Shown piece after piece: positions 1 to 9,368 of a stretch of 9,368 nucleotides of DNA (within the stretch, counting starts at the first letter, position 1; every line of letters begins with the position of its first letter). Origin of the DNA: an uncultured Verrucomicrobiota bacterium. Lineage in GTDB: Bacteria; Verrucomicrobiota; Kiritimatiellia; RFP12; UBA1067. A program made the translations under genes and the position numbers. The DNA is taken from positions 1-9,368 of the forward strand of contig CAMOHV010000028.1 of assembly GCA_946615275.1 (NCBI GenBank). Reading direction: 5' to 3'. The notes under the pieces were generated by a model. The model was given only the letters and a program-made list of their open reading frames with translations. It was not told where the DNA came from and searched no databases.

Positions 1-222
1 GATCTCGATCCTGCCGCGCCATTTCTCCGCGAGCGCGCGTATCTCCGCGAAGTAGCGCGGAGCGGTGTCCGGCGTCAGGTTCCCCGGCTCGCCTGCGGGG
101 AGCATGGCGTGCGCGGAGAATCCGATGGCCGAAAAGCCCTTGGCCACGGCCGCTTCAACCATCGCCTCCGGCGGGTCCTTGCCGTCGCACCATGTGGTGT
201 GCATGTGGAAGTTCGTTTTCAT
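1..222 (-). CDS. Histidinol-phosphatase of the PHP family, N-terminal part
   Basis: This is the first 74 codons of a gene that continues beyond the left edge. The protein begins MKTNFHMHTTWCDGKD. It carries the metal-binding HxH of PHP motif I (H6, H8), followed by D13-G14 and, after a helix ending AAVAKGF, the GFSAHA segment with H38. This order, together with an early segment ending YFAEIRALAEKWRGRIEI, is typical of HisJ/HisK-type histidinol-phosphatases. These remove phosphate from L-histidinol phosphate in the cytoplasm, the penultimate step region of histidine synthesis. The family usually has GFSDHA or GFSEHA; here the residue before H38 is Ala. Other PHP phosphoesterases cannot be excluded from so short a piece. 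The ATG at 222-220 is preceded at 7 nt by a good -10 box, so the mRNA is probably leaderless. An AAAGGAG-like stretch at 242-248 lies about 19 nt upstream, inside the promoter spacer, and is too far away to serve as a ribosome binding site. Confidence 0.8.
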   Translation of the reverse strand, partial: MKTNFHMHTTWCDGKDPPEAMVEAAVAKGFSAIGFSAHAMLPAGEPGNLTPDTAPRYFAEIRALAEKWRGRIEI

Positions 223-258
223 GGCGGATATTCTACCAAATCTCCTTTCGCCGGGCAA
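223..258 (-). promoter_or_regulatory. Promoter of the histidinol-phosphatase gene, probably leaderless
   Basis: Read on the minus strand, a -35 box TTGCCC (258-253) is followed by exactly 17 bp and a -10 box TAGAAT (235-230), preceded by TTTGG. The start codon lies 7 nt beyond the -10, at the place where transcription normally begins. The same layout occurs at two other sites in this window, which raises confidence. No separate Shine-Dalgarno can act downstream of the predicted start point. Confidence 0.65.
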
Positions 259-300
259 TTGGCAATTTAGTTGGAGCGTATGGGGTCATTCCACAAATCG

Positions 301-377
301 TAGGCGCAAATCCCTTTTTGCCTATCAGCCCATTGAGGGCTGCCGCCCCAGGCGAGCCTCACGCCCAAAGGGATTTT
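301..377. repeat. Nested inverted repeat able to form a branched structure
   Basis: An outer 10-bp perfect inverted repeat pairs AAATCCCTTT (308-317) with AAAGGGATTT (367-376). Between the arms lie two further small hairpins: AGCCC-attga-GGGCT (327-341) and AGGC-ga-GCCT (350-359). An alternative left-arm pairing TAGGC (301-305) with GCCTA (320-324) also exists. The arrangement could be a structured RNA, a cruciform operator or the trace of a small palindromic mobile element. It lies between divergent genes, so a role as a gene-end terminator is unlikely. Confidence 0.45.
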
Positions 378-384
378 CATTGTT

Positions 385-423
385 GTTTGTGGACAATGAT
401 GGCATTGAGAGTTTGTGGACAAT
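385..423. repeat. Two direct copies of GTTTGTGGACAAT, DnaA-box-like
   Basis: The 13-mer GTTTGTGGACAAT occurs at 385-397 and again at 411-423, a 26-bp repeat period. Its reverse complement contains TTGTCCACA, a one-mismatch form of the classical DnaA box TTATCCACA and a form favoured in some GC-rich bacteria. A looser relative (TTCCACAAA) lies near 289-297. The pair may bind DnaA or another regulator controlling the divergent promoters. There is no further evidence for a replication origin. Confidence 0.4.
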
Positions 424-488
424 CAAAAAACGTCGAATTCACTACACCTGCATTTGAGATACCGCTTACCTCGAAGTGAATGCGGCGT

Positions 489-523
489 TTGCGCCACGAG
501 GCTATTTTTGGTAAAATATCGCC
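489..523 (+). promoter_or_regulatory. Promoter upstream of the giant secreted protein gene
   Basis: The -35 box TTGCGC (489-494), exactly 17 bp, and the -10 box TAAAAT (512-517) preceded by TTTTTGG match the architecture of the two other promoters in the window. A short palindrome GGCG-tttg-CGCC (484-495) overlaps the -35 and could be an operator. The predicted start point coincides with the ATG at 524, which opens a mini-ORF rather than the main gene. Confidence 0.6.
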
Positions 524-544
524 ATGGCGGAGAAGAGGCCATAA
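524..544 (+). CDS. Six-codon leaderless mini-ORF in the leader (MAEKRP)
   Basis: The ATG at 524 lies 6 nt after the -10 box and encodes MAEKRP before TAA at 542. If transcription starts at the ATG, as at the two sister promoters, this would be a leaderless leader peptide ahead of the large gene. The frame is the same as that of the main gene but is separated from it by this TAA and a TGA at 614-616. It may have no function, with the ATG being simply part of a general start-site motif. It could also be the remnant of a longer N-terminus. Confidence 0.3.
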   Translation: MAEKRP

Positions 545-634
545 AGGTGCCGACGACCGGCGAACTGCGATCCCGCGCGGCGCGGCATCGACGACCCGCT
601 GATGGAGCCGGCATGACGGGAAAGGAGCGAGGAG
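524..634 (+). promoter_or_regulatory. 111-nt 5' leader of the giant gene with its ribosome binding site
   Basis: This GC-rich leader runs from the predicted transcription start to the TTG start codon. It contains self-complementary runs such as GCCG-acgac-CGGC (from about 549) and CCGCG-cgg-CGCGG, and two copies of CGACGACC (551-558 and 589-596). A second short frame (ATG 613 to TGA 645, MTGKERGVVF) overlaps the main start out of frame. AAAGGAG at 621-627 lies 7 nt before the TTG at 635 and is a strong Shine-Dalgarno, which decides that start. No known riboswitch class was recognised. Confidence 0.45.
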
Positions 635-5812
<5,178 letters not shown>

Positions 5813-5829
5813 TCCCCCGCGCGCTGAAC

Positions 5830-5869
5830 CTTTCAACTTTTCAACCTTTCAACTTTTCAACTTTTCAAC
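5830..5869 (+). repeat. Five tandem 8-nt repeats (C/T)TTTCAAC
   Basis: Five perfectly phased octamers, alternating CTTTCAAC and TTTTCAAC in the order C,T,C,T,T, fill most of the gap between the giant gene's stop (5810-5812) and the next gene. An extra AAC at 5827-5829 precedes them. The array is pyrimidine-rich on the coding strand and far lower in G+C than its surroundings. It is not an inverted repeat, so it is not an intrinsic terminator. It may be an interspersed intergenic repeat of this genome or an mRNA spacer element. Confidence 0.8.
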
Positions 5870-5889
5870 TTGTAAAGAGGACGCAAGCA

Positions 5890-6484
5890 ATGAATTCCTT
5901 CGAGGCATTGATCTCAGACTTCGCCGAGAAGACGGGGCTGTCGCTGTAGTCAGTCAAGGACGGCGACGTCGACCTCGTCGTGGACGGCGTGGACGTGAGC
6001 GTGCAGTATCGCCAGGACAAGGACGACTGCGTGATGTTCACGCTGCCCCTCGACGACACGGAGCCAGACGCCAGGATGTCGCGCCGGGCCCTTGAGCTTG
6101 CCGCGAACGGCGCGGGCACGGGCGGGCACTTCCTGGGTGTAAAGGAGGGCATGTTCGTCCTTTCGTCCGTCGCGCTGCTTGGCGGTCTTTCCGCAGAGGA
6201 CTTCGCCGAGCGCCTTCTCGCGCTTCCGGCCGCGGCGCGCCCCGGTTCGCTCGTCGCGTACATGAACGCATTGTTCCGCGACGAGCTGCTTGCCTTCAAG
6301 GACATCGGCGAGGCGGATGCGGTGTTCGCGAAGTACGAAGGGGCGGTCCGCCCCCGGCAAGTTCAACGCCCTGCGCGCGGAGATCGAAGCGATCCCGGAG
6401 GATGCGTTCGCGAATCACGAGCACCTCGGGATCGGCGACAAGATCCGCGACATCATCTGCTTCGCGGTCGCGCCGGAGGAGTGA
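5890..6484 (+). pseudogene. CesT-like type III secretion chaperone, interrupted by TAG and a +1 frameshift
   Basis: A start ATG with a good Shine-Dalgarno (AAGAGGA at 5875-5881, 8 nt spacer) opens MNSFEALISDFAEKTGLSL, then meets TAG at 5947-5949. The frame continues with clear coding character: DLVVDGVDVSVQYRQ, then a helix ending GAGTGGHFLGV, then FVLSSVALLGGLSAEDF. This is the order of CesT/Tir-type secretion chaperones, small acidic cytoplasmic dimers that hold an effector for the type III export gate. Near GGGG (6340-6343) and CCCCC (6351-6355) the sensible frame shifts by one nucleotide. It then continues GKFNALRAEIEAIPEDAF and ends FAVAPEE at the TGA in 6482-6484. Corrected, the protein would be about 197 residues, longer than the usual 130-160, owing to a C-terminal extension I do not recognise. 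Codon use is intact on both sides of both lesions. This suggests recent decay, sequence error or recoding. A GTG at 5980 could allow restart. Family assignment is from pattern only. Confidence 0.6.
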
Positions 6485-6503
6485 GTCGCCTGAAGCGCTC
6501 CTC

Positions 6504-6538
6504 TTGCGCGGGCGGGGGTGAAATGGTATAATCGTCCC
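6504..6538 (+). promoter_or_regulatory. Strong promoter of the beta-helix glycosidase gene, probably leaderless
   Basis: The -35 box TTGCGC (6504-6509), exactly 17 bp, and a perfect -10 box TATAAT (6527-6532) preceded by ATGG lie immediately before the gene. Only 6 nt (CGTCCC) separate the -10 from the ATG at 6539, so transcription should start at or next to the start codon. There is no Shine-Dalgarno in that space. The promoter overlaps the end of an out-of-frame extension of the preceding gene. Confidence 0.75.
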
Positions 6539-9368
6539 ATGAAAACGAACATCGCCCTCGCCGCCGTGCTCGCGCTCGGCGCCGCTTGCGCCGAGACCGT
6601 CGATCCCGCGGCCTACGGCTTCTCCCCAGACGCCGCCCCCGAGGTGAACGCAGCCGCCCTCCAGAAGGCGCTCGACGGCGGACGCAGGACCGTCAAGGTC
6701 GCGAAGGCCGGCGTCTACGGCCTCGACCGCACCGTGTTCATCGACAGCGACACCGTCCTCGAGTTCGCCCCCGGCACCGTCCTCAGGAAGATGAAGCCGT
6801 ACTCCAACGTGCTCGTCAACCGAGGGGCCTACAACTACGGGTGCGACTCCAACATCGTGGTGCGCAACCTCGAGATAAGCGTCAACAAGATGCAGTCAAT
6901 CCCCGGGCCCGAATCGAACGCCCCGGGCCTTCGCGGCCACTTCGCCTTCTACCGCGTGAAGAACGTTGAGTGCCACAACTTCACGTGCAACGACTGCGAG
7001 GGCGGGCAGTACTGCTGGCACGCCGTGGACTTCGACGGGCTCCTCCTCGACGGCTTCGTGATACGCGGCAAGAAGGACGGCGTCCATCTCAACCGCGGCC
7101 GCAACTTCACGATCCGCAACGGCGTCCTCAGGACGGGCGACGACGGCGTGGCGCTCAACGCCGGCGACTGGCCCGGCGGCTGCACGCCCGTGATGGGCTC
7201 CATCGAGAACGGCGTCGTCGAGAACATCGTGGACGAGGATGGCGGCAAGTGCAACTTCGCCCGCGTCATCACCGGCTGCTGGAAGGAATGGCACCCCGGG
7301 ATGAGGCTCCAGAGATGCGACATCTTCAAGGTGGGGAAGAACGTGTATGCCGTCTATCCCATGCCTCTCGGCACGAACGAATACGTCTCGATGACGGCGC
7401 CCTCGCACAAGCACGGCGTGTGGAAGAGCCCCGAGGGGATCAACTTCCAGTATCTCCAGGACGACGGCGAGACGCGCGCAGACATCAAGAACGTCACGTT
7501 CAGGAACATCCGCATGGAGTGCCCCCGCGCCATCTCATGCAGCTGGGAGATGGGCGACTGGGCCCGCCTCGTCCATCCCGAGATTCCGCGGAAGGACTAC
7601 CCGGTGATCGACATCAAGCTCGAGAACGTCGTGAAGACCGCGCCGGGGCCGATAGTGACTGGCAACGCGTGCGCCAACATCGAGTTCGACAACGTCAAGA
7701 GCGAGAAGGGCGCCATCCTCACCTTGGGCCGCGTCCGGCAGGGCATGGGGACTGGCCTGTATTCCACGGATCGTCGCATCAAGGTGAGGAACTGCGTCTT
7801 CGACGGCAAGGAGCGCGTGGACTTCGTGTTCAGGGATCCCGCCGGCAGCGGCTCGATCGAGCTTGTCGGGAACAAGGCGTCACGCCCTGTGAAGATCGAT
7901 GGGGACCTGAGGGACATCGCGATCAAGGGCGACACGCCCGTCGACGCGCCTGCCGCGCCGAAGGTGCTGCACGTCGATTCGGAGAAGGGCGACGACGCGG
8001 GCGACGGCTCGGCGGCGCGTCCGTTCAAGACGCCTGCGAAGGCGAAGGAGGCCGTGCGCGCGCTGAAGAAGAGCGCGCAGGGCGGGGTTGTGGTGGAGCT
8101 GGAGGGCGTCTTCCCCGGGCTGAAGGGGCCGGTGCTGGACCTGGGGAAGGACGACGGCGGCGCTTCGCCGTCCGCCCCCGTGGTGTGGCGCGCCGGGGGG
8201 CGGGGCGCGCTCCTCACGGGCGCGTGCCGTCTCGCGGCGTCCGACTTCAGGCCAGTCTCGGGCGCGGCGCGCGAGCGCCTAAAGCCAGAGGTGCGAGGCA
8301 AGGTGTACGAGTGCGACCTCAAGAAGTTCGGCGTCGGCGAGCTTAAGCCGCTCCCCGCGAAGTTCAACAAGTGGTCCGAGATGGAGCTCGTCTCGTCCGG
8401 CCGCGCCATGACGATCGCCCGCTACCCAGACTCCGGCTGGCTGGAGATCACAAACGTGATCGACCGTGGCGTCGCCCCCAAGGACCTCAAGAAGGGCGAG
8501 TGGGAGTTCGGCGTCCGGGGCGGCACGTTCGAATATCCCGGCGACGCGCCGTCGCGCTGGGACGTCTCGAAGGGCGTCTTCATCTTCGGCTTCTGGTGCT
8601 ACGACTGGGCGAGCGACACGCTGCGCCTCGCGAAGATCGACACGGAGAAGAGGACGTTCACCACCGAGGGCGTGCACACCTACGGCATCGGCAAGCCCAG
8701 CAAGTGGGCCCAGGCGAAGCCGCGCTACTTCGTGTACAACCTCCTCGAGGAGCTGGACGCCCCCGGCGAGTGGTATGTGGACCGCGAGACGCGCACGCTC
8801 TACTTCTACCCCAGCTCGGACGGCTTCAAGGACGTCGCGCTCTCGCTAGCGAAGTCTCCGCTCGTGCGCATCTGCAATGCGGCCAACGTTGTGGTGAAGG
8901 GGCTGTCGTTCAAGTATTCCACGGGCCTTGCGGTGCAGGTGGCCGCATCCTCGAACGTGGATCTCGAAGGGCTTGACGTCTCATGGCTCTCGCAGAACGG
9001 CATAAGCGTGTGGGAGGGCCGCGGCGTCACGGTGCGGAACTGCCGCATCTACGAGATCGGCAGCGCCGGGCTTTCGGTCTATGCCGGCGACCGCAAGTCG
9101 CTCGCGAAGTGCAACCACCGCATCTGCGGCAACGACATCGGATTCTGCGGACGCCTTGCTCGCATATCCGGCCCCTGCTGCACATTCGGCGGATGCGGCA
9201 TAACCGTGGAGCGCAACTACTTCCACGACACGCCGTACATCGCGATGAGCTACGGCGGCAACGAGCACCTGATACAGTACAACGAGATCGAGTGCGCCAT
9301 GCTGGAGGCGGGCGACGGCGCGGGCATGTACACCGGGCGCGACTGGGGCAGCCGCGGCAACGTGGTCC
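6539..9368 (+). CDS. Secreted two-domain beta-helix glycosidase (GH28-like plus GH141-like), 3' end missing
   Basis: One frame stays open for 943 codons from ATG 6539 to the right edge. A signal peptide (MKTNIALAAVLALGAACA) probably cleaves after A18. The cysteine at 17 lacks a proper lipobox. Residues about 25-470 form a right-handed beta-helix of the pectate-lyase/GH28 type: NAAALQKAL at the start, KKDGVHLNRGRNFTIRN with D180, then TGDDGVALN with D201 and D202, matching the Asp positions of polygalacturonases. The GH28 GHG motif is not evident. From residue 475 a second typical entry begins (HVDSEKGDDAGDGSAARPF). It is followed by GGVVVELEGVF, a SAPVVWRAGGRGALLTG segment, and later NEHLIQYNEI and LEAGDGAGMYTGRDW (residues 922-936). 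These are hallmarks of GH141-like helices, a family with fucosidase and xylanase members. The likely role is depolymerising pectic or other complex polysaccharides in the periplasm or outside the cell. The substrate is unknown. Roughly 200 or more residues are probably missing beyond the edge. Confidence 0.8.
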   Translation, partial: MKTNIALAAVLALGAACAETVDPAAYGFSPDAAPEVNAAALQKALDGGRRTVKVAKAGVYGLDRTVFIDSDTVLEFAPGTVLRKMKPYSNVLVNRGAYNYGCDSNIVVRNLEISVNKMQSIPGPESNAPGLRGHFAFYRVKNVECHNFTCNDCEGGQYCWHAVDFDGLLLDGFVIRGKKDGVHLNRGRNFTIRNGVLRTGDDGVALNAGDWPGGCTPVMGSIENGVVENIVDEDGGKCNFARVITGCWKEWHPGMRLQRCDIFKVGKNVYAVYPMPLGTNEYVSMTAPSHKHGVWKSPEGINFQYLQDDGETRADIKNVTFRNIRMECPRAISCSWEMGDWARLVHPEIPRKDYPVIDIKLENVVKTAPGPIVTGNACANIEFDNVKSEKGAILTLGRVRQGMGTGLYSTDRRIKVRNCVFDGKERVDFVFRDPAGSGSIELVGNKASRPVKIDGDLRDIAIKGDTPVDAPAAPKVLHVDSEKGDDAGDGSAARPFKTPAKAKEAVRALKKSAQGGVVVELEGVFPGLKGPVLDLGKDDGGASPSAPVVWRAGGRGALLTGACRLAASDFRPVSGAARERLKPEVRGKVYECDLKKFGVGELKPLPAKFNKWSEMELVSSGRAMTIARYPDSGWLEITNVIDRGVAPKDLKKGEWEFGVRGGTFEYPGDAPSRWDVSKGVFIFGFWCYDWASDTLRLAKIDTEKRTFTTEGVHTYGIGKPSKWAQAKPRYFVYNLLEELDAPGEWYVDRETRTLYFYPSSDGFKDVALSLAKSPLVRICNAANVVVKGLSFKYSTGLAVQVAASSNVDLEGLDVSWLSQNGISVWEGRGVTVRNCRIYEIGSAGLSVYAGDRKSLAKCNHRICGNDIGFCGRLARISGPCCTFGGCGITVERNYFHDTPYIAMSYGGNEHLIQYNEIECAMLEAGDGAGMYTGRDWGSRGNVV

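Follow-up and report, generated by a model that had tools for sequence, protein, structure and literature searches.

Does transcription begin directly on the start codon of some genes in Kiritimatiellae? The question is raised by 9,368 nucleotides (nt) of DNA from an uncultured Verrucomicrobiota bacterium (assembly GCA_946615275.1, contig CAMOHV010000028.1, positions 1 to 9,368 of the forward strand), a stretch called the window in the following. Three promoter-like sites were recognised in it. The first (258-230, minus strand; TTGCCC 258-253, TGG 238-236, TAGAAT 235-230) precedes a gene for a PHP-domain protein, the second (489-517, plus strand; TTGCGC 489-494, TGG 509-511, TAAAAT 512-517) lies 5' of a gene for a protein of 1725 amino acids (aa), and the third (6504-6532, plus strand; TTGCGC 6504-6509, TGG 6524-6526, TATAAT 6527-6532) precedes a gene for a right-handed beta-helix protein. 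According to an earlier sequence-only reading, all three share a TTGCSC hexamer as -35, a spacer of 17 bp, a TGG abutting the -10 and an ATG 6-7 nt further on, such that the mRNAs would begin with AUG. The hexamers, the spacer and the TGG were indeed found in this form at each of the three sites, and the gaps between the -10 and the ATG are 7 nt (ATG 222-220, minus strand), 6 nt (ATG 524) and 6 nt (ATG 6539). We consider it highly probable from the sequence that these are extended -10 promoters of the primary sigma factor, giving leaderless mRNAs at the PHP and beta-helix genes and a leadered mRNA at 489-517.

The three sites and the starts behind them

TGGTAnAAT was found three times in the window against 0.02 expected occurrences. 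The longer pattern TTG-N17-TGGTAnAAT has three copies in the 9368 bases and none in any of 200 shuffles, and TTGNNN-N17-TAnAAT matches three times in total, precisely at these sites (0.03 expected). All three sites have the TG by which an extended -10 is defined, at -15/-14 and ahead of a TATAAT-like hexamer. A T at -17 is present at two of them, the site at 6504-6532 having an A.

The claim that every site places a gene ATG at the transcription start (+1) is upheld for the PHP and beta-helix genes, where a true gene start follows the -10 at the distance expected of a transcription start, and fails for 489-517, as ATG 524 starts no gene. The PHP-domain gene (1..222, minus strand, 3' end beyond the window; Pfam PF02811, E 2.2e-8) begins at ATG 222-220, the A of which is the predicted +1, and the N-terminus of its protein is kept among relatives. 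The beta-helix gene (6539..9368, plus strand; PF13229, E 1.8e-10, above the cut-off) has its predicted +1 at ATG 6539 and runs off the window, encoding 943 residues up to this point. Its product has a signal-peptide-like N-terminus according to a home-made rule, and the matches to GH28, NosD and GH141_M are each under the respective cut-off. Because the -10 ends 7 nt (230-258) and 6 nt (6504-6532) before the gene ATG, both mRNAs are predicted to be leaderless. No Shine-Dalgarno (SD) sequence was seen by eye before ATG 222 or ATG 6539.

At 489-517, the ATG at the predicted +1 opens an open reading frame (ORF) of only six codons (524..544, plus strand; MAEKRP, then stop), which excludes it as a leaderless gene start. 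The glycine-rich 1725-aa protein is encoded at 635..5812 (plus strand). Since a stop codon at 614-616 shuts its frame, this gene can begin no earlier than TTG 635, and two SD-like sequences read from the sequence, AAAGGAG (621-627) and GAGGAG (629-634), occupy positions 621..634 ahead of this TTG. Most likely, therefore, the gene is SD-led with a predicted leader of about 111 nt, 489-517 is an ordinary leadered promoter and the position of ATG 524 is a coincidence. Pfam gave a below-cut-off Flg_new/List-Bact repeat alone for this protein; about 32 copies of the triplet GGC (1436-1530) encode a glycine run within it.

A different assignment makes all three sites leaderless, with the six codons from ATG 524 serving as a leaderless leader peptide that controls the 1725-aa gene. 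ATG 524 has the right distance from the -10 for this, but short ORFs after an ATG at 5-8 nt were found at 2 of 50 TGGTAnAAT sites in contigs of relatives and are no commoner than after control triplets (GTA 3, AGT 0 of 50). Furthermore, the leader of the 1725-aa gene folds unremarkably (z -1.04), by which a structured leader was ruled out as well. A control peptide is accordingly rated very unlikely, and the leadered, SD-led gene is retained as the preferred reading. Rfam gave no match at the gathering threshold over the window.

Leaderless-type starts in relatives

Four records encoding relatives of the beta-helix protein were found in the genome collection, each covering about half of it with identities of 74, 74, 66 and 66%, and the window, from a gut-type bacterium, is Kiritimatiellae-like. 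They belong to uncultured Lentisphaerae RUG572 and to Kiritimatiellae/Kiritimatiellia metagenome-assembled genomes from goat, water deer and horse. Genome-wide tests were run on these four relatives plus their family and phylum. Contigs 1-20 of G001, the RUG572 bin (L045-L064), have a guanine-cytosine content of 32% compared to 53-63% in the sampled contigs of other relatives, and the bin may include contigs of another organism. These 20 contigs were excluded from all rates, as were the first 20 stretches of G002, which came from contigs with motif matches.

The check proposed earlier for a -10 at a fixed distance before ATG was passed in the relatives, with enrichment at 6-8 nt. TGGTAnAAT-N4-9-ATG matched 109, 134, 68 and 64 times in four relatives, and the pattern read backwards 0, 1, 1 and 1 times. 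Summed over 20 genomes chosen as motif-rich, 2228 matches were counted for N4-9, 769 for N10-15 and 739 for N40-45, whereas 12 family members chosen as motif-poor gave 32, 28 and 31 matches, i.e., no peak. In contigs not picked by motif matches, TAnAAT peaks 6-9 nt 5' of ATG and AGGA has a separate peak at 7-9 nt. The -10 signal recurs 17-40 nt ahead of ATG, where leadered promoters belong.

At the level of genes, contigs of G002, G004, G175 and G187 which had not been picked by motif matches were used. A simple codon-usage gene finder called 487 genes in them; 460 had usable starts, and 452 internal start codons served as controls. G175 and G187 had been selected as motif-rich, G002 and G004 were found by protein similarity alone. 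A -10 is located 5-9 nt before the start in 43 of the 460 genes (9%) vs 3 of the 452 controls (Fisher p 2e-10), and G002 and G004 alone give 25/272 genes vs 2/266 controls. An SD-like sequence precedes 223/460 genes vs 82/452 controls, and five of the 460 genes have both signals. Leaderless initiation as a common mode, as the sequence-only reading had it, is thus partly supported by the enriched -10 placement in the relatives, but as a minority mode next to the SD-like starts (43 vs 223 of 460).

Three further genomes were sampled, of which G030 (9/123 genes) and G066 (9/106) had been selected for a high TATAAT-N5-8-ATG ratio, their gene calls being seeded with G002 codon usage, and G201 (4/61) had been selected as motif-poor; pooled, 22/290 genes compare with 1/282 controls. 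A signal-peptide-like start was found in 16/43 leaderless-type genes vs 82/218 SD-led genes, and a role mainly for exported proteins was dismissed in the absence of any bias. AAA as second codon is commoner in the leaderless-type genes (12/43 vs 23/218 SD-led).

Within the family of G002, TGGTAnAAT-N4-9-ATG ranges from 0 to 178 matches per genome. By-eye counting of its 57 genomes gave 33 with at least 20 matches and 24 with at most 17, and the motif-poor genomes have few TGGTAnAAT promoters at leadered distances too. This strong variation, together with the scarcity at leadered distances, suggests that the promoter preference changed inside the family. Of 194 genomes compared over the phylum, 14 have at least 25 matches to TATAAT-N5-8-ATG and at least twice as many as to TATAAT-N12-15-ATG (counted by eye), with G114, G123, G171 and G187 qualifying barely. 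A phylum-wide peak was not seen by this crude TATAAT count, which can miss the mode, as G201 shows.

Promoter consensus and point of initiation

Motif flanks were compared at 30 leaderless-type sites each from G002 (of 125), G234 (of 136) and G220 (of 125). T is found at -17 in 83% of these 90 sites and a purine at -16 in 72%, with A/T-rich sequence just upstream; in 34 other TGGTAnAAT sites of the relatives, T at -17 reaches 85%. An ORF of at least 60 aa or one leaving the locus follows at 81/90 sites, and in G002 alone 27/30 sampled sites open long ORFs or ORFs leaving the locus. AAA is the second codon in 32/90. An SD sequence at usable distance is present at 0/90 sites, which is largely forced, as the fixed motif occupies that place. 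The consensus read from these sequences is TRTGn-TATAAT, a known extended -10, whereby n is G in the 90 sites by design, since the search pattern fixed it.

Two further parts of the sequence-only reading were not sustained. The TGG-extended -10 had been tied to leaderless initiation; among 50 TGGTAnAAT sites in contigs not picked by matches, however, an ATG at 5-8 nt is present in 14 and not in 36. The leaderless-type -10s of the four sampled relatives have TG in 39/43 cases, a value partly built in by the rule used, and TGG in 13/43. Because of these proportions, TGG is judged from the sequences to be a mark of the clade's promoters generally and not of leaderless genes. It was also discarded as a mark of the leaderless mode because G201 keeps leaderless-type genes although the 96 kb examined of it contain no TGGTAnAAT and its whole genome a single TGGTAnAAT-N4-9-ATG. 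TTGCSC as the -35 of the lineage seems to be weak or absent in the relatives: TTG at spacer 17 was found in 6/90 sites, all from G002 (6/30; G234 0/30, G220 0/30). In 34 TGGTAnAAT sites without an ATG at 4-9 nt, T occupies the two -35 columns in 59% and 53%. This bias is weak, and the window's -35 can at most be regarded as a weak feature that G002 has as well.

We infer that polymerase with the primary sigma factor would bind the extended -10 (TRTGn-TATAAT) together with a weak -35 of the TTG type 17 bp away, and that transcription would begin about 7 nt past the -10, at the A of the ATG or a few nt from it. The PHP and beta-helix promoters would then yield leaderless mRNA with a 5'-terminal AUG, which ribosomes, mostly 70S, may bind directly (excerpt of the review PMC9031893). 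The same promoter type at 489-517 would drive the leadered, SD-led 1725-aa gene. Leaderless initiation would serve roughly a tenth of the genes of the lineage, alongside the commoner SD mode.

The exact start could also lie 1-4 nt 5' of the ATG, resulting in very short leaders which are not strictly leaderless. The gap between the -10 and the ATG is 6 nt in 23, 7 nt in 38 and 8 nt in 29 of the 90 sites and varies more than one fixed start position needs. On the other hand, C stands immediately 5' of the ATG in 65/90 sites, which suggests that transcription starts on the A of a pyrimidine-purine pair and fits the YR start rule in the excerpted PMC4782308. Very short leaders are considered unlikely, and their functional outcome would be much like that of a leaderless mRNA.

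Promoters might instead lie further upstream, in which case the -10-like sequence would be no promoter but an A/T-rich region of low structure or for S1-type ribosome binding. In SD-less genes, AT-rich sequence around -20 to -10 has been read either way in the literature (PMC5397173, in excerpt). A general AT-rich helper has, however, no need of TG or of a fixed distance of 6-8 nt, whereas the signal here is a specific extended -10 with its prevalent T at -17, and the same motif also occurs at leadered distances of 17-40 nt before genes. Such a helper region is rated quite unlikely, and extended -10 promoters remain the preferred reading.

Several points weigh against this reading. For the organism and the sampled relatives it is a prediction from sequence, and the genome-wide figures all derive from relatives. 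The -10 rule was lenient, allowing mismatches and favouring TG, and gene finder and start choice were home-made; 199/460 genes carry neither a -10 nor an SD-like sequence, from which it follows that much escapes the rules or the start choice. The PHP gene is present in 13 of the 20 motif-rich genomes, and a -10 lies exactly 6 nt before its start in three of them, which speaks for the reading: TAGAAT-N6-GTG (G232, with TGG), TACAAT-N6-GTG (G001) and TATACT-N6-ATG (G004); no such -10 was seen by eye in the other 10. The leaderless arrangement of the beta-helix gene is found in 0/2 relatives with a readable start, the upstream sequence being different in the G002 record and SD-like in the G003 record. 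These sequences suggest that the initiation mode differs from one gene to the next.

Finally, a plain sigma-70 scan of the window recovers one of the three sites with 1.1 expected, and TTGCGC, present at two of the sites, matches TTGACA at 3/6 positions and does not satisfy the rule of the scan. The scan result also speaks for a chance resemblance in intergenic DNA. Against chance stand the enrichment of the longer patterns over expectation and shuffles as well as the tests in relatives, and it is given practically no probability.

A broader proposal, to which we assign slightly less than an even chance, is that a gut/rumen clade of Kiritimatiellae uses TRTGG-TATAAT with almost no -35 as its primary promoter, by which roughly one gene in ten would have its AUG or GUG at +1, and that individual genes move in and out of the leaderless mode within short evolutionary spans. 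If so, initiation in this class would be described for the first time.

Known systems and further features of the window

Akkermansia and Kiritimatiellae belong to one phylum in recent taxonomy. The rate of 9% of genes in the Kiritimatiellae relatives is close to what was obtained by Cappable-seq for Akkermansia muciniphila in mouse caecum, where 10% of the start sites are leaderless, at annotated gene starts (PMC4782308, in excerpt). The Akkermansia transcripts were mapped on RNA, whereas the Kiritimatiellae case is a sequence prediction. A further difference is that Akkermansia is listed as SD-scarce in an excerpt of PMC10783764, which also has one table row for Kiritimatiellae; in the Kiritimatiellae relatives, SD-like sequences outnumber the -10 signal. 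If true, a rate near that of Akkermansia would be in line with a phylum in which SD and leaderless initiation generally occur side by side.

For many bacteria, leaderless genes have been described on the basis of a TA-like signal some 10 bp ahead of the start codon (Zheng et al. 2011, PMC3160421, in excerpt). As in that excerpt, the -10 lies here directly before the start, SD-led genes occur in the same genome and the mode is widespread and not dominant; unlike the TA-like signal, the signal here is TRTGn-extended. A term search of the available PMC3160421 text gave no mention of Verrucomicrobia, Lentisphaerae or Akkermansia. In Gram-positive promoters, the extended -10 has the form TRTG at positions -17 to -14; TGn can offset a poor -35, yet most TGn promoters keep at least 3/6 matches to the -35 (excerpt of PMC2613000). 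The Kiritimatiellae sites resemble the TGn/-10 promoters of this excerpt in their TG, which a single base separates from the -10, in the T at -17, in a purine at most sites at -16 and in having little -35, and differ from them in lineage and in being known from sequence alone.

Among the matches listed, no account of leaderless initiation in Kiritimatiellota/Kiritimatiellae was found, and the searches brought up no promoter consensus for this lineage. As far as these searches reach, the mechanism is known and the lineage is new for it, and if true, the reading would provide a promoter consensus for a little-studied lineage. Leaderless transcription is predicted in 21.6% of bacterial species, as cited in a paper on gene starts (PMC9581028, in excerpt). 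If true here, about one gene in 11 would have no SD sequence, and its -10 would be the better guide to its location, a point of importance for the calling of gene starts.

Between the 1725-aa gene and the third promoter, a CesT-like frame (type III secretion chaperone family) is located at 5890-6484 on the plus strand (PF05932, E 5.7e-5, just over the cut-off). It looks interrupted, with an in-frame stop at 5947-5949 and, judged by eye, a frame change near 6357. A tandem array with 5.6 copies of AACTTTTC (5827-5871) separates it from the 1725-aa gene. Two repeats are found 5' of the promoter at 489-517: an inverted repeat with perfectly matching 10-nt arms, AAATCCCTTT/AAAGGGATTT, 49 nt apart (308-376), followed by a 13-nt direct repeat of GTTTGTGGACAAT with a spacing of 26 nt (385-423). 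Both are possibly an operator or the end of an element.
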